This document shows, piece after piece, positions 4,556 through 42,635 of a stretch of 42,850 nucleotides of DNA. Numbering within the stretch: the stretch's first letter is position 1; each line of letters starts with the position of its first letter. Where the stretch lies: NCBI GenBank assembly GCA_030600545.1, contig JAUVLV010000021.1, positions 1 through 42,850 on the forward strand, given 5' to 3'. The position numbers and the translations under genes are program-made. The stretch comes from Candidatus Aegiribacteria sp. Its GTDB lineage: Bacteria; Fermentibacterota; Fermentibacteria; Fermentibacterales; JCC-6. The notes beneath the pieces were generated by a model. It was not told where the DNA came from. It saw only the letters and a list, made by a program, of their open reading frames with translations, and ran no database searches.

Positions 4556-5703
4556 AAATCTATCTGGACAATAACGCTACCACAAGAGTTGTTCCTGAGG
4601 TTCTCGACGCAATGATTCCCTTTCTAACGGAAAGGTTCGGCAACCCATCCAGCTTTCACTCTTTCGGAAGCGATATAATGGAAAATATCGAAAAGGCCAG
4701 GAAGAATATTGCGGAACTCATAGGAGCCGATGCTGAAGAAATTATTTTCACGTCAGGGGGAACCGAAAGCGATAACACAGCCCTTATCGGCGCAGTGGAA
4801 ATCAATCCTTTGAAACCCGGCCTTGTTACATCCCGGATAGAACACCCGGCAGTTCTTGAAACAGCAGAGTATCTGGCCGGAAAGAGGCATCCCGTTGCGT
4901 TTTCTGAAGTAAACAGTGACGGAACACTGAATATGGATTCTTTCGAAAATTGTATCAGTGAACAGACGGGCCTTGTTTCAATAATGATGGCCAACAATGA
5001 AACCGGCGTTGTAATGCAGGTGAAAGAAGCGGCACGCAAGGCCCATGAAGCTGGAGCACTTTTTCATACTGATGCCGTTCAGGCCATGGGTAAGGTCACC
5101 GTTGATGTAAAATCCATGGGGATAGATATGCTCAGTCTCTCTGCTCACAAGTTCCATGGCCCGAAGGGAGTGGGAGCCCTTTACATCAGAAAAGGGATAG
5201 CAATTCCCCCGCTCATGCTTGGGGGGCACCAGGAAAAGGGAATGAGAGCGGGCACTTACAACGTTCCCGGAATTATTGGGCTTGGAAAAGCAGCAGAACT
5301 TGCAGCAGAACACCTTTCGGATAAGAGTGGCGGAACAGGACTACTGCTGGATAAACTGGAAAAGGGCATACTGGATAACTGCCCTGGAGCAGTTGTGGCA
5401 GGCGCAAACACCGAGAGGCTTCCCAATACAGCGACAGTGATGTTCAAGGGAGTGGAAAGTGAAGCTGTAATGACCATGCTGGACATAGAGGGTGTTTGTG
5501 TGTCTTCCGGCTCCGCTTGCAGCACCGGTGAACAAACCCCCAGCTACGTTCTTTCGTCTATGGGGATTGACCCGGTTGATGCCAACACTGCCATACGGTT
5601 CAGTTTGAGCAGATATACAACCAGTAGAGAAATAGACTATGTGATGGAGATTCTTCCTCCAATCATTGAAAAGCTAAGAAAAATTTCACCTTACGCTTAT
5701 TAG
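4552..5703 (+). CDS. iscS: Cysteine desulfurase (IscS/NifS)
   Basis: A 383-residue class V aminotransferase-fold PLP enzyme that converts L-cysteine to alanine and leaves a persulfide on its active-site Cys for the scaffold. Visible elements are the N-terminal IYLDNNATT, E97-H98-P (His stacks on PLP), HTDAVQ at 172-177, PLP lysine K200 in SAHKFHG, RAGT at 232-235, and the catalytic Cys C323 in SSGSACSTGE. The loop after the catalytic Cys is compact, as in NifS-type enzymes. It overlaps the scaffold gene by 4 nt. Its stop codon lies inside a hairpin shared with the convergent next gene. Very secure assignment; NifS versus IscS naming is arbitrary here, as there are no nitrogenase genes. Confidence 0.96.
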   Translation: MKIYLDNNATTRVVPEVLDAMIPFLTERFGNPSSFHSFGSDIMENIEKARKNIAELIGADAEEIIFTSGGTESDNTALIGAVEINPLKPGLVTSRIEHPAVLETAEYLAGKRHPVAFSEVNSDGTLNMDSFENCISEQTGLVSIMMANNETGVVMQVKEAARKAHEAGALFHTDAVQAMGKVTVDVKSMGIDMLSLSAHKFHGPKGVGALYIRKGIAIPPLMLGGHQEKGMRAGTYNVPGIIGLGKAAELAAEHLSDKSGGTGLLLDKLEKGILDNCPGAVVAGANTERLPNTATVMFKGVESEAVMTMLDIEGVCVSSGSACSTGEQTPSYVLSSMGIDPVDANTAIRFSLSRYTTSREIDYVMEILPPIIEKLRKISPYAY

Positions 5704-7177: not shown

Positions 7178-10042
7178 ATGACAAAGGCCACCAGATGGCG
7201 TAACTGGAGTTCGCTTGCTTTATTTGTAGTGTCAATCCTCATGGTTTGGCCGACTATACACTGGTATACAATGCCTTCCCGCGAAAGGGACCGGGCGGAG
7301 GCCAGCGTTCAACCCGAAACAGACAACCCTCATCTCAGAGCAGTGCTGGACACCCTGCAGATCCAGGGAGGAGAAAGCCTGCTTGAGGAATACAGGCACC
7401 TTTATAAAACCAGTGAAGGCACCATAAAACTGGGGCTTGATCTCCAGGGTGGAATGTATCTGTCATACATGGTTGTCCCGACTCCAGGCCTGGACGAGGA
7501 TGAAGCTATCGACCAGGCGCTTGAGGTTATAAGAAACAGAATAAACGAGTTTGGCGTTTCAGAACCTTCCATTACTCGTCAGGGCAGCGATAGAATAGTA
7601 GTTCAGCTGCCGGGTGTGCGCGATCCGGAAAGGGCCAGGGCAATTGTAGAGCGGCAGGCCATGCTGGAGTTCAAGCTCGTTGCATACCCTTCCGAGGAAC
7701 ACCCTGCTGTATCCAGTGTACCTGTTCTGAGGCAGGTTGATGATTTCCTGTCCGGTAATGAGGAAGAAGAGCCTGCACCAATAGACAGCCTTATGGGTGA
7801 GTACTCCGATATTATGGAGGTTGAAACCACTGAAATATCTATTCTGGACACCGATTCAACAATTCAGTTTGATACACCTGAAGGTTTTACTCTTCCACAG
7901 CGTGAAACGGAGGGTGAAAATGTAACCGATGAAATCACTCTTCCTGAGAGGGGATCCCCGGGAAGCCTTGCAAATCTCATCGAGCTGGCATCTGAGGATA
8001 TAACTTATAGCACTTCCGGTATAGCGCCAGGAGACTGGATCGTTTACACCGGCGATAAAATGGACCAGCTCAATAACATCATCAATACCCCAGCTGTAGA
8101 CTCGATCATGGCTGAAGCCAATCTCAGTTTCGTTTTCGGCAGACTGGAAGAAACGTCACGGGGATCGCTGAGGGCTCTGTATATTCTTCCCCGTGACATG
8201 ACCCGGGGCTGGGAACACCAGGTTGACCAGGTTACAATGGAATACCTTCTTACGGGAGCTAATCTTACCGATGTAAGAATACGCATGGGAAGCGCACAAT
8301 CACTTTCGAACAATCCGTATCTCATTCTTGAATTCGATTCGGACGGAGCCAGGAACTGGGAACAGATTACAGGGAACAACGTAGACAAGCGGGTGGCGAT
8401 AGTACTTGACGGCACCGTGTACTCCGCCGCGACCATTCGCGAGCGGATATCCGGGTCAGGAACCAGGCTATCAGGTGGTTTCTCAACGGAGGAGGCAAGA
8501 GACCTGAGACTGGTTCTGAAAGCTGGTTCCCTGCCGGCGGAGCTCGTAATTGCCGAAGAGCAGACCATAGGCCCAAGCCTGGGACAGCAGTCCATAAACA
8601 ATGGGATGATGGCGGGAATAATCGCGATGGGACTGGTGGCTGCCTTCATTATCATCTATTACGGAACAGGCGGGATAATAGCAATTCTGGCGCTTATCTT
8701 CGATATGCTCATTATCATGGGAGTTCTCTGTTTCCCCGGACCCCTGGCACAGATAGGGGTCAAGGGTCTTAACGCCACCCTTACCCTGCCGGGAATAGCG
8801 GGTATCATTCTGACCATAGGTATGGCGGTTGATGCCAGCGTTCTTATATACGAGAGGATCAGAGAGGAGAAGAAGGCCGGCAAGGGTATAAGAGCAGCAG
8901 TGAGGGCCGGGTATTCCAGAGCCTTCGTTACTATTCTCGATGCCAACCTCACCACACTGATCACAGCCCTGGTGCTGTACAAATTCGGAACCGGTCCGAT
9001 AAAGGGATTCGCTGTTACTCTCTCTATAGGTATTCTGGCCAGTATGTTCTGTTCTCTTGTCTTTTCAAGGGCTGCTATAGAACTTCTGCTCAAGAGCAAG
9101 AAGAAAAAGGACCTCAGTTTCGGAAAATTGTCCGTTATGGGTGACAGACATTTCTCTTTTGTAGAAATGCGGAAGAAGACATACATAATTTCCGCTGCAG
9201 TTATTCTCATAGGAGCGGGAGCATTCTTCATCAACGGAGGACTGAATCTTTCGATTGACTTTACGGGTGGCCTGGAAACGAACGTTGTCAGTAACACCAC
9301 CGCAACAACCGGAGAACTGAAGAACGCACTGACTAATAGCGGGCTTCAGGATGTACAGGTTCAGAAACTTATGGATTACGAGGGAGATGGGGCCGCCGCA
9401 TTTGTCGTTCGGACTTCGGAGGCAGACAAAGATGTTGTCTACACCGCTCTGGAGATTAACGGATGTGTCCCCATGGAGTTGGAGGCTGATACCGAAGGGC
9501 TTTCCTTCATCAAGCAGATAGGTCCCAGGGTTGGAGAAGAGCTGACGAGCAAGGCGCTTAACGCTATCTTCATGGCGATGATCTTCATCATCTTCTTTGT
9601 CTGGTACCGATTCCAGTTCAAGTGGGGGGTAGCAGCTGTGATCGCCCTGGCGCACGATACCATCATAACAATAGGGCTGCTTGCGCTGATCAGGCTTGAT
9701 ATATCACTGACGATTATCGCCGCGATTCTGACGATAGTGGGTTATTCGATAAACGACACCATAGTCGTTTTCGACAGGATCCGCGAGGACAGGAGGCTCA
9801 GAAAGGGCAAAACACTGGCGGAGACGGTGAATATATCCATAAACGAAGTTCTGAGCAGAACGGTAATAACATCTCTTACAACTTTCATGGCCGCTTTCAT
9901 ACTCTTCTTAATATCGGGAGGGGTACTGTCCCGCTTCGCTCTTACACTCATGATAGGGATAATTGTAGGAACCTACTCTTCCATATTCATTGCCAGCCCG
10001 ATTCTTGTTGACTGGCACGCAAAGCTCAAGAAGAAGAGATAA
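7178..10042 (+). CDS. secDF: SecDF: single-chain protein-export membrane protein
   Basis: A 954-residue fusion of SecD and SecF, the proton-motive-force-driven partner of SecYEG that pulls exported proteins across the inner membrane. The SecD half begins with a TM at about 12-30 and carries GLDLQGG near residue 86 and the large periplasmic P1 domain (to about 470). It then has five more TMs with GMAVDASVLIYERIREE (conserved Asp and Arg). The SecF half starts with a TM near 670, the LSIDFTGG motif near 691, the P4 periplasmic domain, and TMs from about 795 to 940 with GYSINDTIVVFDRIRED. The start at 7178 has GGAGG 9 nt upstream; an ATG at 7151 lacks an SD. P1 carries an acidic insert of about 100 residues (about 190-290). 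YajC is not adjacent. Confidence 0.96.
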   Translation: MTKATRWRNWSSLALFVVSILMVWPTIHWYTMPSRERDRAEASVQPETDNPHLRAVLDTLQIQGGESLLEEYRHLYKTSEGTIKLGLDLQGGMYLSYMVVPTPGLDEDEAIDQALEVIRNRINEFGVSEPSITRQGSDRIVVQLPGVRDPERARAIVERQAMLEFKLVAYPSEEHPAVSSVPVLRQVDDFLSGNEEEEPAPIDSLMGEYSDIMEVETTEISILDTDSTIQFDTPEGFTLPQRETEGENVTDEITLPERGSPGSLANLIELASEDITYSTSGIAPGDWIVYTGDKMDQLNNIINTPAVDSIMAEANLSFVFGRLEETSRGSLRALYILPRDMTRGWEHQVDQVTMEYLLTGANLTDVRIRMGSAQSLSNNPYLILEFDSDGARNWEQITGNNVDKRVAIVLDGTVYSAATIRERISGSGTRLSGGFSTEEARDLRLVLKAGSLPAELVIAEEQTIGPSLGQQSINNGMMAGIIAMGLVAAFIIIYYGTGGIIAILALIFDMLIIMGVLCFPGPLAQIGVKGLNATLTLPGIAGIILTIGMAVDASVLIYERIREEKKAGKGIRAAVRAGYSRAFVTILDANLTTLITALVLYKFGTGPIKGFAVTLSIGILASMFCSLVFSRAAIELLLKSKKKKDLSFGKLSVMGDRHFSFVEMRKKTYIISAAVILIGAGAFFINGGLNLSIDFTGGLETNVVSNTTATTGELKNALTNSGLQDVQVQKLMDYEGDGAAAFVVRTSEADKDVVYTALEINGCVPMELEADTEGLSFIKQIGPRVGEELTSKALNAIFMAMIFIIFFVWYRFQFKWGVAAVIALAHDTIITIGLLALIRLDISLTIIAAILTIVGYSINDTIVVFDRIREDRRLRKGKTLAETVNISINEVLSRTVITSLTTFMAAFILFLISGGVLSRFALTLMIGIIVGTYSSIFIASPILVDWHAKLKKKR

Positions 10043-10067
10043 AAAAATACTGCAGTACTGCAGCAAG

Positions 10068-10095
10068 AGCGGAACAGGTTAACGCCTGTTCCGCT
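10068..10095 (+). terminator. Terminator hairpin after secDF
   Basis: A perfect 11-bp stem (AGCGGAACAGG at 10068-10078, complement at 10085-10095) with the 6-nt loop TTAACG, 25 bp after the secDF stop. The tail is only weakly T-rich. A separate 14-nt palindrome (CTGCAGTACTGCAG, 10050-10063) lies immediately before it. Confidence 0.6.
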
Positions 10096-10236
10096 TGACT
10101 TTCAGCGGATTAACCCTTTTCCTGTATGCCCCGGGGGGTCTGAGATACTTGATAGAATTTCTTTATTTCCTCTCAGGCAGTATAAGTCAGGAAGATTTGA
10201 ATTCCATAATAATGACTGTATGAATCAGACAAAAGA

Positions 10237-10265
10237 TTGACAATATCAAAAATAGATGATATGAA
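10237..10265 (+). promoter_or_regulatory. Promoter of the secreted anchor-J-like gene
   Basis: TTGACA (10237-10242) and TATGAA (10260-10265) with a 17-bp spacer in an AT-rich tract, 48 bp before the start codon. The remaining sequence between the secDF terminator and this promoter shows no gene. Confidence 0.65.
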
Positions 10266-10313
10266 ATATATAATGTAGAGTGTTTAACTAATTCTAAAGA
10301 AAGGAGTTTAAGT

Positions 10314-10892
10314 ATGAAATTTTTACTGATTTCAATCCTTGTTTGCTTGACTGGCTTTGCTACTGCCGATGTTATTGTCGACGAGGGTTTCGAGGGCGGT
10401 GTTGTTCCGCCGGCAAACTGGCAGGTCTGGGAAGAGGGCGAAACCGGTTGCTCGGAATGGGCCATTACAATTATGTCACCTCATACAGGTGATTACTGTG
10501 CGTATCATAGTGATTCGTACAGTGCACTATCTGACAGCTGGCTTGTTACCGACACTTATGACCTGAGTACTTCTCCCATAGTAACATATAGTTTCTGGAG
10601 AGATCTTGGGGGGGCATATTACTATGATTACACCGGATTCTGGTACTCCCTGGTAGAAGATCCAACCTCATCTGACTTCACTGAAATGTTTGAACTCGGC
10701 AATGCGAATAGTGAATGGGAAGAATTCTCTGGTGATGTCACCTCGGAATGTGGCGGTCAGCCATATGTTACTTTCGCCTGGGTATACAGAGGTAGATATG
10801 ACCATACCGAGCGTATTGATGATTTTATTTTAGAAGGATTTCCAACTGCTTTGGAACGGAATTCCTGGGGTGCCATCAAGTCAGCTTTCTAA
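10314..10892 (+). CDS. Secreted choice-of-anchor-J / cleaved-adhesin-like domain protein
   Basis: A 192-residue secreted protein made of a signal peptide (MKFLLISILVCLTGFATA) and one jelly-roll domain. The order of elements, DEGFEGG near the start, then a PPANWQ turn, WAITIMSPHTGDYCAYH, a SWLVTDTYDLS strand and a final DDFILEG strand, matches the choice-of-anchor J (MAM-like, cleaved adhesin) domain. This domain usually binds carbohydrate or protein at the cell surface. It lacks the long FlgD-like sorting tail of its neighbours and instead ends in a short TALERNSWGAIKSAF. The GGAG SD and spacing are ideal. It has its own promoter and terminator. Three Cys in the jelly roll suggest a disulfide. 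Confidence 0.7.
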   Translation: MKFLLISILVCLTGFATADVIVDEGFEGGVVPPANWQVWEEGETGCSEWAITIMSPHTGDYCAYHSDSYSALSDSWLVTDTYDLSTSPIVTYSFWRDLGGAYYYDYTGFWYSLVEDPTSSDFTEMFELGNANSEWEEFSGDVTSECGGQPYVTFAWVYRGRYDHTERIDDFILEGFPTALERNSWGAIKSAF

Positions 10893-10914
10893 CTACTGCT
10901 GACAATTGTTAAAG

Positions 10915-10950
10915 AAGTGGCAAACACTGATTCAAAGGTGTTTGCCGCTT
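10915..10950. terminator. Bidirectional terminator hairpin
   Basis: The arms at 10915-10927 and 10938-10950 pair over 13 positions (GGCAAACAC with its complement, plus AAG/CTT and one G-T), leaving a 10-nt loop. It lies between the anchor-J gene and the convergent histidine kinase gene. T-rich sequence follows on the minus strand (TTCTTTAACAATT). Confidence 0.75.
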
Positions 10951-10984
10951 TAACATACTAATCTGTTTTAAACCAAAAGGATTT

Positions 10985-12205
10985 TTAATCTGATACAAGT
11001 TCTATAACAGCTTCCGCGCCTCCCAGTTCTTTGCTCGAACCGAATAATAGATTACCTCCGTGCAGAGTTACTATTCGCTTAGCAATAGCCAGACCTAATC
11101 CTGTTCCTTTGCTTGAGTGACCTTTGGCGAAAGGTTCTCCAAGCCTGTTGATGATTCCAGGATCGTAACCGCTACCGTCATCCGCTACAGAAATCAGGAC
11201 TCTGTCGGCAGAGGAATTATCGGAAATATTCACTGCTACTTTCGATTCGGCATGGTTCACCGCATTACGGATGAGATTGCCAACAGCCCTGCCGAGAAGG
11301 GAAATGTCCCCCGTGCAGCTGCCTCTGCCGCGAAGCTTGATATCAATTTCGTTTCTGGCCCAGGATTCAGCCTGAATCATCTCCCTGCAGACCCCTTCAA
11401 GGTCTACATTTTCACGATTGATGTGACTTTCTCTCCTCAATTTGTTGAAAGCAAGAAGTTCCGTTACCAGGTTATCCAGAGCTATGAGATCCTTCTCCAT
11501 CCTGTCGATCTTGGAGAAGTTTTCCTCTCCCGAGTCTTCCCTTAAAAGCTCAAGGGCCAGCCTCATCCGGGTCATCGGTGTGCGCAATTCATGAGCGACG
11601 ATTCCCAGAAGTTCCTGGTGAGATTCGATCAGGGATTTTATCTGTTCCGCCATGCTGTTGAAAGTTCTCCCCAGATTATCTATAAGATCTCCCTTTTTTT
11701 TCACCTGCAGCTTTATTCCAAAGCTGCCGGAACCGATTTCAGAGGCAGCCCACTGAAGTTTTGACAGCCTTTTTCGAATAGGCCAGAGGGCTACGAAAAG
11801 AACCAGTCCTTCCGTTACAAGGAGTAACAGTAATATCAGCCAGAAGCTTTTCCTCAGAAAACCTGCCGGACCTCCCCGGGGTCCGCCAGAAAGATCTATC
11901 CTCCAGGGATAATCCCATGGAAGCCCCGGGAGAGTATAGAATCCTTCCTGAGGAGGAATACGGCGAAGGTGCCCTGCGTTGGGATATACTATTATCTCAA
12001 GATCCATTGATTCTGCGACAGAGATGATGGAATCCTTTTCAAGCAGCTGTGACGCGAGCAGTAAGCCTCTGAATTCCTCTACATTAGCTCTGTAGGCGTT
12101 TATCTGGGCCGGGATGATCTTCATAATAGCCACTACTGACAGAATCAGTGTCATCACAATGCATATGGCCAGGGGCATGTAAACTTTAAGAAAGAGTTTA
12201 TGCAT
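10985..12205 (-). CDS. Sensor histidine kinase (EnvZ/CpxA-like)
   Basis: A 406-residue inner-membrane kinase: TM1 at about 9-31, a small periplasmic sensor of about 85 residues with PWDYPWRIDL, TM2 at about 121-141, HAMP to about 193, HisKA with phospho-acceptor H205 in AHELRTPMTR, and a HATPase_c domain. The latter has the N box (NLIRNAVNHA), G1 (DDGSGYD) and G2 (GTGLGLAIAKR). The E/D-R-T-P pattern next to the His is that of EnvZ/RstB/CpxA kinases. Its start overlaps the response-regulator stop by one base (TGATG), so the pair is translationally coupled. The periplasmic part is Gly/Pro-rich near TM2. The signal is unknown. Confidence 0.93.
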   Translation of the reverse strand: MHKLFLKVYMPLAICIVMTLILSVVAIMKIIPAQINAYRANVEEFRGLLLASQLLEKDSIISVAESMDLEIIVYPNAGHLRRIPPQEGFYTLPGLPWDYPWRIDLSGGPRGGPAGFLRKSFWLILLLLLVTEGLVLFVALWPIRKRLSKLQWAASEIGSGSFGIKLQVKKKGDLIDNLGRTFNSMAEQIKSLIESHQELLGIVAHELRTPMTRMRLALELLREDSGEENFSKIDRMEKDLIALDNLVTELLAFNKLRRESHINRENVDLEGVCREMIQAESWARNEIDIKLRGRGSCTGDISLLGRAVGNLIRNAVNHAESKVAVNISDNSSADRVLISVADDGSGYDPGIINRLGEPFAKGHSSKGTGLGLAIAKRIVTLHGGNLLFGSSKELGGAEAVIELVSD

Positions 12206-13543: not shown

Positions 13544-14269
13544 TTACCTTCTCTTCGAACCTATACCGAAAAGTATCCTGCCAAGTATAAGAACAACTGC
13601 CGAGTGTAAGATAAGAACTAACATCTGAATAAGACCCTGCGGGTACTTAAGCCCCAGGGTCATTAATCTTCCAACCGGAGGAATGACAGCGTAGAGCCAT
13701 TCCGGAAGTCTGGCAAGTGGAAACCCGGCCAGAAACCCCAGAAGCAGCAGCGCGGTGAAAAACATTGAGCCTGCGGTTCCTTTTGTCAGTATGCCCAGAA
13801 AAGCTCCTGTGGATACGGCCCATACCACAGGAACATAGGACTCGGCTATGATCTGCAGCAGAGGGAATCTTCCAGGTTCGGGAAGCGCTGCCGCCACCGC
13901 TCCAATTGTCAGTATGAAAATGATTGATGCAACGGAGAGTACCGCAAGATATGGTCCCCAGAACCCGGAAGATCTGCTGACAGGAAGAGCCAGTGAATTT
14001 CTGAACCAGCTGGATTCCCATATTCCCGAAAAGAACATGCAGGACTTGATTCCGGCAACGAGAGTAAGAAGAAGGGAACCATTCCAGATGGCCAGTACGG
14101 TTCTCTGTTCAATATTGAATATTCCCGTTACTCCATGGGTAGACAGGTACGCCTCCGCATATACTATGAAAGCAAGTATTGGCGGAACAAGAAGGTACGG
14201 GCCAATCCACTTTGTCTTAAGAAGAATATTTATGCTTTCCCTGAAATGGTAGGTATTCCGACCTCTCAT
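13544..14269 (-). CDS. ABC-type transporter membrane subunit (ABC-2-like permease)
   Basis: A 241-residue integral membrane protein with about six hydrophobic segments (about 22-42, 59-80, 103-126, 139-160, 165-186 and 212-234) and a basic C-terminus (GIGSKRR). It is short for an ABC-2 permease but has the usual N-terminal amphipathic stretch before TM1. It overlaps the preceding ATPase gene by 4 nt (ATGA), which is the main reason for calling it the transporter subunit. Substrate unknown; ABC-2 systems export lipids, polysaccharides, peptides or drugs. One segment (TKWIGPYLLVPPILAF) is Pro-rich. Convergent with the secreted gene to its left. Confidence 0.65.
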   Translation of the reverse strand: MRGRNTYHFRESINILLKTKWIGPYLLVPPILAFIVYAEAYLSTHGVTGIFNIEQRTVLAIWNGSLLLTLVAGIKSCMFFSGIWESSWFRNSLALPVSRSSGFWGPYLAVLSVASIIFILTIGAVAAALPEPGRFPLLQIIAESYVPVVWAVSTGAFLGILTKGTAGSMFFTALLLLGFLAGFPLARLPEWLYAVIPPVGRLMTLGLKYPQGLIQMLVLILHSAVVLILGRILFGIGSKRR

Positions 14270-15889: not shown

Positions 15890-15966
15890 GCGCCCGTAGC
15901 TCAATTGGATAGAGCGTCTGGCTACGGACCAGGAGGCTCCGGGTTCGAGTCCTGGCGGGCGTACCA
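15890..15966 (+). tRNA. tRNA-Arg (anticodon ACG)
   Basis: A 77-nt cloverleaf read by eye. The acceptor stem GCGCCCG pairs with CGGGCGT (one G-U at the end). The D arm is GCTC-AATTGGATA-GAGC. The anticodon stem TCTGG/CCAGG holds the loop CTACGGA with anticodon ACG. The T arm is CCGGG-TTCGAGT-CCTGG. Discriminator A and an encoded CCA end the gene. ACG in bacteria is edited to ICG by TadA, whose gene is also in this window (42180-42635), so the two products are functionally linked. Confidence 0.97.
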
Positions 15967-40798: not shown

Positions 40799-40894
40799 TT
40801 CGGATATCCTCCAGTCGGTTTCTGATGAGATTGTTATATTCCTGATACAGTCAAATGATATTATTACACTGGTAAAGGATTAATGGAGGACGAT

Positions 40895-42148
40895 ATGTTC
40901 TGTTCAAAGGTCTACGTAAACCGCAGAAACAAACTAATCGAAATAATGCCGGAGGAATTCCTGATTATCGTTCCTCCATCCACTTCTAAGCCCACAAGTG
41001 CTGATGGCCAGTATCCGTACACCCCCAATCTTAACCTTGTTTACCTTACGGGAATTGACCAGCCGGGGACATGGCTTGTCATCCACCGCAGAAAAGCAAT
41101 GGATGCCCGGGAAGACCTTTTCATCAATGCCTACGATGAAACCCACGCGAAATGGTTTGGAACAATACTGACAAAAGAGGAAGCAGCCGAAAGAAGCGGT
41201 GTAGCAAATATATCATTCAACAGCGGAGTGAAGAAATGGATAGATAGAATAATAATCCGCTGGGGGATTGAAAATGTATGGATTGATTTTCCTGTAACCG
41301 GTATTACAAGGGACAGCGGCAAACGGCTTGAATTTGCAAACGATTTGATATCTTCGTACCCTCAACTGAATTTCAACAGGCTTTCGGGTGATGTATTCCG
41401 CCTTCGGATGGTAAAAGGATCCGAAGAACTTGAAACCATGAAGAAGGCAATAGCCCTTACGCGGAAAGGTTTTCTGCGTGCCCTTAAAGCACTGAAGCCG
41501 GGAATGCTCGAATACGAATTCGAGGCGGAGCTTCTTTACGAATTTACTAAAAATGGCGAGAAGATCCCGGCCTTCCCCGCAATTGTCGCCGGAGGAAGCA
41601 GGGCAACGTGTCTTCATTACGTTGACAACAATGAACCTCTCGAGGAAGGAACAATGGTTCTTCTGGATTTTGGCGCCAGGAAAGATTACTACAACGCAGA
41701 TATCTCAAGAACCTTCCCGGTCAACGGCAGGTACACCGCCAGACAGAGGGAACTCGTTGAAATGGTTATTGGTGTTCAGGAAGAGGCTATTCGCCTTCTC
41801 AGACCCGGGAAGCTCCACTCCGAATGGAACAGCGAAGTGAAAAAATTCTACACTGGAGTTCTCATGAAAAAAGGCATCATTGAAAACGAAGAGGATATAG
41901 AGAAGTATTACTATCACAATATCGGCCACCACATAGGGCTGGATACCCATGACGAGAACGTGATAAGTGATGAGCTGAAATCAGGTATGGTACTTACTGT
42001 TGAGCCTGGTTTCTACTCCGAGGAAGAAGAAATCGGAATAAGGATAGAGGATGATGTATTGATAGGTGAAAAGGAAAATACCGTACTGTCGGCAAATATT
42101 CCGAAATATCCTGATGAGATAGAAGCCGTAATGAAGAAAGGGGAATAA
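40895..42148 (+). CDS. Xaa-Pro aminopeptidase (M24B, PepP-like)
   Basis: A 417-residue enzyme that releases N-terminal residues before proline. The N-terminal creatinase-like AMP_N domain (about 5-165) is followed by the pita-bread metallopeptidase domain with the five metal ligands D258 and D269 (LDFGARKDYYNADISR), H345 (GHHIGLDTHD), E370 (LTVEPGFY) and E385 (GIRIEDDV), all present. Start at 40895: GGAGG is 5 nt upstream; an ATG at 40883 is in frame but less well placed. tadA follows immediately, so the two are likely co-transcribed. PepP of E. coli is 440 residues. Confidence 0.95.
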   Translation: MFCSKVYVNRRNKLIEIMPEEFLIIVPPSTSKPTSADGQYPYTPNLNLVYLTGIDQPGTWLVIHRRKAMDAREDLFINAYDETHAKWFGTILTKEEAAERSGVANISFNSGVKKWIDRIIIRWGIENVWIDFPVTGITRDSGKRLEFANDLISSYPQLNFNRLSGDVFRLRMVKGSEELETMKKAIALTRKGFLRALKALKPGMLEYEFEAELLYEFTKNGEKIPAFPAIVAGGSRATCLHYVDNNEPLEEGTMVLLDFGARKDYYNADISRTFPVNGRYTARQRELVEMVIGVQEEAIRLLRPGKLHSEWNSEVKKFYTGVLMKKGIIENEEDIEKYYYHNIGHHIGLDTHDENVISDELKSGMVLTVEPGFYSEEEEIGIRIEDDVLIGEKENTVLSANIPKYPDEIEAVMKKGE

Positions 42149-42179
42149 AATAAACATCTCTGAAATTGACAGATACTGG

Positions 42180-42635
42180 ATGAAAGTCGCTCTGGAAAAG
42201 GCTGAGGAAGCGTTTCAGGCAGGGGAAGTTCCCGTTGGCGCTGTTCTGATAGAATCGTCAGGCAGGGATTTCGCTGACCGCAACAGAACAATAGAAACAG
42301 GAATGCCCACTTCCCATGCCGAGCTCCTTGTCATAACCGCAGCGGCGAAGGACAGGGGAGACTGGAGGCTTGATGGCTGCACACTCTACTCAACACTTGA
42401 ACCCTGCCTTATGTGCGCCGGTCTGGCAGTGCTATCCCGGATTCCCAGGATAGTATATGGAGCCCGTGATAAACGTTTCGGAGCATTCGGGTCAGTAACA
42501 GATGTTCTTGAAATGACCAATTTGAACCACTATCCCCGGGTTTTAGGCGGATGCTATGAAGATGAATCCGAAAAACTTCTGAAGAAGTTTTTCAGGAAGG
42601 GCAGGAAAAAGAAAGCAGAAAAAAAGCAACCCTAG
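42180..42635 (+). CDS. tadA: tRNA adenosine(34) deaminase TadA
   Basis: A 151-residue zinc enzyme (as read from the ATG at 42180) that converts A34 to inosine in tRNA-Arg(ACG). The motif H46-A-E48 and the P-C76-x2-C79 pair are intact, and GAFGS and the closing helix LLKKFFRKGRKKK match TadA rather than guanine or cytosine deaminases. The N-terminus is short: TadA normally has about ten residues before the WM-x3-AL helix, and here the in-frame codons just upstream read NISEIDRYW. A non-ATG start (ATA 42150 or ATC 42156) behind AAAGGGG (42137-42143) may be used; see findings. It lies close to the aminopeptidase gene (stop at 42148). The tRNA substrate is encoded at 15890. Confidence 0.92.
   Translation: MKVALEKAEEAFQAGEVPVGAVLIESSGRDFADRNRTIETGMPTSHAELLVITAAAKDRGDWRLDGCTLYSTLEPCLMCAGLAVLSRIPRIVYGARDKRFGAFGSVTDVLEMTNLNHYPRVLGGCYEDESEKLLKKFFRKGRKKKAEKKQP

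Follow-up and report, generated by a model that had tools for sequence, protein, structure and literature searches.

The tadA gene of Candidatus Aegiribacteria, an uncultured genus of the Fermentibacteria, encodes a tRNA adenosine deaminase and very probably starts at an ATA codon (42150-42152, plus strand) and not at its first in-frame ATG (42180-42182, plus strand). Positions are those of the window, the whole stretch of 42,850 nt of DNA that was analysed. The start position is well supported by an AT-N column that runs through the genus. The fuller proposal, namely that tadA starts at this ATA with the assistance of a Shine-Dalgarno (SD) sequence and of coupling to the upstream gene pepP, and that the start is deliberately weak and sensitive to the initiation factor IF3, is likely as a whole. 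It may be inferred from the comparison of sequences that initiation occurs at the ATA, that its output is low and IF3-sensitive, and that these properties are under selection.

pepP encodes an aminopeptidase P-like M24 peptidase (ORF coordinates 40883-42148, plus strand; stop codon TAA at 42146-42148), the product of which matches the Pfam families Peptidase_M24 with 183 bits and AMP_N with 76 bits, each above its cut-off. The stop-to-stop frame of tadA is open from 42135 to 42635 and contains no ATG, GTG or TTG before 42180. Read from the ATA, which lies 1 nt past the pepP stop, tadA spans 42150-42635 on the plus strand and comprises 161 codons plus a stop. Its codons 2-10 (42153-42179, plus strand) encode NISEIDRYW and would be missing from the product if the ATG at 42180 initiates. 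An SD-like AAAGGGG (42137-42143, plus strand) is situated within the final codons of pepP, 6 nt before the ATA and 12 nt before an ATC (42156-42158, plus strand) that had been put forward as a second start candidate. These positions and both spacings were already given in an earlier interpretation of this DNA made from the letters alone, here called the sequence-only reading, and all of them are confirmed, as is its statement that NISEIDRYW stands in frame before the ATG, the codons ahead of 42180-42182 reading I N I S E I D R Y W.

The identification of TadA is based on Pfam and PDB matches and on its motifs. The frame read from the ATA matches MafB19-deam with 111 bits (cut-off 27) and dCMP_cyt_deam_1 with 85 bits (cut-off 25), and its top NCBIfam match is the equivalog NF008113 with 140 bits, which is under the cut-off of 150 for that model. 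The best PDB matches are three tRNA adenosine deaminase chains, 2b3j, 7cph and 1z3a, of which we take 2b3j to be from S. aureus and 1z3a from E. coli. The zinc deaminase motifs HAE (H56-A57-E58) and PCxxC (P85-C86-x-x-C89) are invariant in an alignment of 29 sequences. When numbered from the ATA, residues 7-155 align to residues 7-155 of 2b3j with no offset at either end, the internal gaps cancelling each other. The expected substrate of TadA is tRNA-Arg(ACG), and a gene for this tRNA is found by ARAGORN in the same window (15890-15966, plus strand).

A search for tadA over 60 genomes, the window genome included, yields matches in 51, including each of the 18 further genus genomes, the named records of which are metagenome assemblies. 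Seventeen of the 19 genus genomes can be read collinearly at codon 1; G005, in which the ATG is shifted and overlaps the upstream stop, and G002, which is cut by a contig end, are left out. Codon 1 is ATG in seven of the 17 (G013, G010, G016, G011, G003, G015 and G012), ATA in another seven (the window genome, G009, G007, G017, G006, G014 and G008), ATC in two (G001 and G004) and ATT in one (G018). The first two bases are therefore AT throughout, while codons 2, 3, 5, 6 and 8 vary at those bases in the same genomes, a contrast that exceeds chance, and neither GTG nor TTG occurs at codon 1 in any of them. A codon of the AUH type (AUA, AUC or AUU; AT-H in the DNA) is thus kept at this position across species, in 10 of the 17 genomes and in more than one clade. 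Three public contigs (L034-L036) have start regions identical to those of three genus loci.

The AUH genomes offer few other usable initiation codons in frame. ATG, GTG and TTG are absent between the in-frame stop and codon 11 in the window genome, G018, G007, G004 and G006, and the sole canonical codon in G001 and G009 is an internal GTG, at residue 6 and residue 8 respectively. G017, G014 and G008 do have canonical in-frame codons upstream, inside pepP, but with a weaker SD than codon 1: an ATG 12 codons upstream in all three (SD between -0.6 and -1.9 kcal/mol), with additional ones in G017 and G014 (-1.0 to -5.8 kcal/mol). The column of the ATC at 42156 has A as its first base in four genomes, C in eight and T in five, and this candidate is rejected because the column is not conserved in the genus. 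The sequence-only reading had left the non-AUG start between ATA and ATC, and the genus comparison thus decides for the former.

SD strength is expressed as the best duplex, in kcal/mol, with the anti-SD ACCUCCUUA, a sequence that we take to be the 16S tail and that is not derived from these genomes. By this measure the SD before codon 1 is stronger than that before the codon-11 ATG in 17 of 17 genomes, with means of -9.3 and -2.3 kcal/mol respectively. Within the ten AUH genomes the codon-1 SD ranges from -6.5 to -12.1 kcal/mol at a spacing of 5-7 nt; the contrast is least clear in G001, where -11.7 at codon 1 compares with -10.8 at the internal ATG (11 nt spacing). In the window the values are -7.8 at the ATA and +0.4 at the ATG, which bears out the earlier remark that the latter has no SD. 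Sixteen of the 17 genomes have 1 nt between the upstream stop and codon 1, whichever stop or start codon is present, and G007 has 4 nt. Codon 1 lies outside pepP, therefore no overlapping frame forces the AT-N. Coupling to pepP termination is likely to help tadA start; the sequence-only reading had offered such coupling as an alternative to non-AUG initiation, but with this near-constant spacing the two are better seen as parts of one arrangement.

A maximum-likelihood tree was built from the two proteins of 29 loci (the 17, G005, G019 and ten from sister genera). It places the seven ATG genomes in a single nested clade (support 99), to which G009 (ATA) also belongs, with a placement support of 41-42. 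The AT-H genomes occupy those deeper branches that keep codon 1, and its third base switches among A, C and T: the window species (ATA) stands beside G018 (ATT), G007 (ATA) is joined with G001 (ATC, support 83), and G017, G006, G008, G014 and G004 form a third group with four ATA and one ATC (support 100). G019, which belongs to another genus, is placed among the genus members with a support of 55, therefore the deep branching is unsure. On the simplest reading of these sequences, the AUH start would be old in the genus, its third base would have changed several times among A, C and T, and ATG would have arisen in one clade. All ten tadA loci of the sister genera have a GTG that overlaps the upstream stop (nine in g5 and one in g4, judged by eye). 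No canonical start precedes residue 9 in the tadA locus of G019 (L022), also from a sister genus, and an ATC 3 nt past the upstream TAA is the likely start there.

The pattern of substitutions also bears on where translation begins. When every pair of the ten AUH genomes is counted, the differences in codons 2-10 number 167, 144 and 228 at codon positions 1, 2 and 3 (228 of 539 at the third), while the 27 nt upstream, read in the tadA frame, give 113, 177 and 162, as expected if the pepP frame governs there. The ATG genomes yield 32, 20 and 47 for codons 2-10 and 24, 79 and 53 for the 27 nt upstream. When only four independent AUH pairs are taken (G000/G018, G007/G001, G017/G006 and G008/G014), the counts for codons 2-10 are 6, 7 and 10, i.e. 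10 of 23 at the third position. The codon positions thus lend modest support to the translation of codons 2-10.

It is proposed that an fMet-initiated TadA of 161 residues would be made from the ATA at 42150, where the initiator tRNA (anticodon CAU) would match AUA at its first two bases and mispair at the third. This initiation would be assisted by the SD inside the 3' end of pepP and by ribosomes fresh from termination one base upstream. The weak AUA start would keep TadA scarce and, as with infC, a high level of IF3 would reduce its synthesis. In other bacteria AUH starts keep a protein scarce and under the control of the initiation machinery, with IF3 discriminating against them, as for infC, pcnB and ccpN. 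Since AUA, AUC and AUU have been kept through much of the genus, the tadA start is most likely deliberately weak, and since seven genomes have ATG a weak start is not essential. Regulation through IF3 is a plausible reading of the comparative analysis.

infC served as a positive control: its start is ATC in 13 and ATT in four of the 17 genus loci, with a strong SD upstream, and a canonical codon ahead of the conserved protein start is absent in 15 of the 17, earlier ones being present in G006 and G007. Of 36 genomes in the family, 35 yield an IF3 gene, and the IF3 of the window genome aligns to solved IF3 over both domains. G001 (L169) and the window genome (L305) have a canonical initiator tRNA, with three G-C pairs in the anticodon stem. 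An altered initiator tRNA or a damaged IF3 was thus considered and rejected, and with a two-domain IF3 and a canonical initiator tRNA nothing observed points to relaxed initiation. IF3 represses starts other than AUG, GUG and UUG, including those of infC and of Streptomyces sigR, according to the available excerpt of one report (PMC5472188). The excerpt of another gives AUA and AUU starts in S. aureus about 10% of the expression of AUG in poor medium, and ccpN up to 30% in rich medium (PMC13009471).

The AUA could also be a neutral, tolerated weak start that is rescued by termination-reinitiation after pepP, with IF3 regulation irrelevant, a reading that is possible though doubtful. Coupling could make codon 1 nearly neutral instead of selected, and the spacing of 1 nt in all genomes but G007, the stop/GTG overlap in two sister genera (by eye) and the change to ATG in seven of 17 genomes all fit such a view. 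Initiation after a stop is moreover lax about the codon once the ribosome recycling factor is inactivated, as stated in the available part of a study in E. coli (PMC2268962). The same excerpt reports that IF3 also acts on re-initiation, its overexpression cutting that of an SD-less reporter almost threefold; this was ascribed to the missing SD, and as tadA has an SD the result transfers only in part (PMC2268962). Against neutrality, GTG and TTG are both used elsewhere in these genomes yet never at codon 1. Among codons positioned after GGAGG there are 11 GTG, 12 TTG and 72 ATG, in a scan of 4-9 nt with a known bias, since it mis-assigns starts at 7 nt. Neutral drift should yield GTG and TTG before AUH, and their absence at codon 1 is the best argument for selection.

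If translation began instead at the ATG at 42180, TadA would be shorter and the codons upstream would be a leader. This ATG is the first canonical in-frame start, and all 17 genus genomes have it. The reading is nevertheless improbable, for the encoded methionine, residue 11 of TadA, is conserved in 18 of 18 genus loci and in 76 of 76 TadA loci from other bacteria (L038-L113, drawn from the best 80 of 592 hits), and the ATG is rejected as the start because of this conservation across other bacteria. Within the same set, from the best 80 of 592 hits, a canonical start occurs no later than residue 9 in 75 of the 76 loci. Residue 10 is W in all 18 genus loci, and W, F or Y in 66 of the 76 loci from other bacteria. 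Five of the 17 collinear genus loci (L004, L005, L014, L017 and L018), and L022 of a sister genus, have no ATG, GTG or TTG at or before residue 9, i.e. ahead of the aromatic-Met pair; among the loci of other bacteria such a lack is rare, at 1 of 76. An AlphaFold2 model of TadA (mean pLDDT 94.9) has helix 1 at residues 5-23 and a mean pLDDT of 91 over residues 1-10, so that initiation at residue 11 would be predicted to delete the first six residues of this helix. With a conserved internal methionine and no SD, the ATG at 42180 is set aside in favour of the ATA.

The one locus of the 76 that has no canonical start by residue 9 is L047, from a Bacillota metagenome-assembled genome, in which GGAGGAGGG precedes ATC and CTG codons.

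In all 17 genomes the frame of tadA is +1 relative to that of pepP, so that a programmed +1 frameshift at the end of pepP might be envisaged to give a PepP-TadA fusion. This is very improbable, for neither the stop nor the codon ahead of it is constant (GAA-TAA, GGC-TGA, GGA-TAG, GGG-TAG, AAT-TGA and others) and the 17 genomes have no slippery site in common, ordinary ATG starts are present in seven relatives, pepP and tadA of G019 share one frame with a stop between them, and the relation of the two frames differs in two sister genera (by eye). A base error, or one recent mutation from ATG, in this assembly is just as hard to credit: the genome of the window, in 74 contigs, has a completeness of only 73% and, in line with the refutation that the sequence-only reading had set itself, relatives do have ATG here, seven of 17, but ATA, ATC or ATT stands in nine further genus genomes of more than one clade, and an error in a single assembly therefore cannot account for the ATA.

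Further AUH or otherwise non-canonical starts were sought in the genus. The best case besides infC and tadA is an rfaE2-like adenylyltransferase gene (TIGR02199, 183.2 bits, cut-off 181.5; L278-L294). It has an ATT that follows GGAGG by 9 nt in all but one of the 17 genomes and GAGAGG by the same distance in the other, L278, and seven of the 17 have no canonical start from the in-frame stop to the 25th codon past the ATT; the copy in the window genome (L281) has a TTG 14 codons into the frame after the ATT. From these sequences it is probably a third AUH-started gene of the genus. The overlapping end of the upstream gene may constrain the ATT (by eye), and the evidence is therefore weaker than for tadA. 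Several species have no ATG, GTG or TTG upstream of the conserved N-terminal coding of an rsmB-like rRNA methyltransferase gene (L264-L275), and this candidate is rejected, conserved coding seeming to continue upstream of the AUH codon.

Some single observations concern other codons and other genes. In the start column of an RlmL-like methyltransferase gene, the five genomes of the G006 clade (L296-L300) have CTG, and L301-L310 have GTG, TTG or ATG. A solute-binding-protein-like lipoprotein gene, so named by eye, is located on the minus strand of L200 (G018, 10474-11803) and L210 (G015, 10033-11365; both in reverse-strand coordinates); in each a CTG follows AAGGAGG at 6 nt, and canonical starts are absent ahead of residue 41-42. 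On the plus strand of L212 (G015) near 14178 an ATT lies 6 nt after GGGAGG and is followed by a signal-peptide-like stretch, which may be an AUU start. On the plus strand of L159 (contig C16 of the window genome) near 4744, AAAGGAGGGTCTTTGAC is situated at the start of an open frame and resembles the release factor 2 site of programmed +1 frameshifting.

A survey of 120 sampled stretches of six genus genomes looked for coding conservation upstream of any canonical start. This noisy screen flagged 15 of 263 families (654 ORFs), by eye mostly antisense with a few real ones, and a control with 76 loci of diverse bacteria flagged 7 of 46 families; the control flags a larger share than the genus, and the number of flags is therefore uninformative by itself. 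Among 773 genes searched for GGAGG at 5-9 nt, AUH makes up 6 of 48 codons in 28 genes, a count so insensitive that infC is not among them, and no clear genome-wide excess of AUH after GGAGG emerges from it. General relaxed initiation is not seen in the sampled stretches of the six genomes, by surveys that are weak. It may be speculated, tentatively, that infC, tadA and the rfaE2-like gene form a small AUH set governed by IF3, in which the level of IF3 would set, among other things, the I34 editing of tRNA-Arg(ACG) and thereby CGN decoding, tadA having been released in one clade by a single third-base change to AUG.

tadA, as a putative AUH-started gene, joins a known but small class, within which it stands out for its conservation, for the interchange of its codons and for the gene concerned. 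Few AUH-started bacterial genes were met in the parts of the literature available, and among the open-licence papers listed, judged by title and the opening of the abstract, none on a tadA with a non-AUG start was found. Gene callers limited to ATG, GTG and TTG mis-start or truncate AUH genes. A single start position that is ATG in some members of a genus and ATA, ATC or ATT in others constitutes a natural experiment on weak start codons. tadA would also be a clean test case for whether IF3 governs genes beyond infC and whether the dosage of tRNA editing is purposely low.

Two AUU-started genes are counted in E. coli in the available excerpt of a 2022 paper (PMC9410913). The ccpN (AUA), cvfC1 (AUU) and citZ (AUA) genes of S. 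aureus have AUH starts like tadA, and lowered expression was measured for them; the same excerpt describes the ccpN and cvfC1 starts as conserved and preceded by a strong SD (PMC13009471). The S. aureus starts were established by ribosome profiling and reporters, whereas that of tadA is proposed from sequence. Streptomyces sigR, as described in the excerpt available, resembles tadA in having a non-canonical start, GTC, within a two-gene operon, and this start is repressed by IF3 and sets protein dosage (PMC5472188). It differs in that the codon is GUC and not AUH, that sigR is the upstream gene of its pair and that the effect of IF3 was measured (PMC5472188). Like TadA, the product of E. coli pcnB is an enzyme that acts on RNA, albeit a different one, and the low efficiency of its AUU start is described as keeping it scarce. 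The product of infC regulates its own gene, and all 17 genus loci of infC carry an AUH codon, whereas tadA encodes no initiation factor, begins one base past the stop of another gene and has ATG in a nested clade. With infC, which may start with AUU, AUC or AUA, tadA nevertheless shares an AUH start, a well-placed SD, conservation across species and a codon identity that varies from one species to the next.
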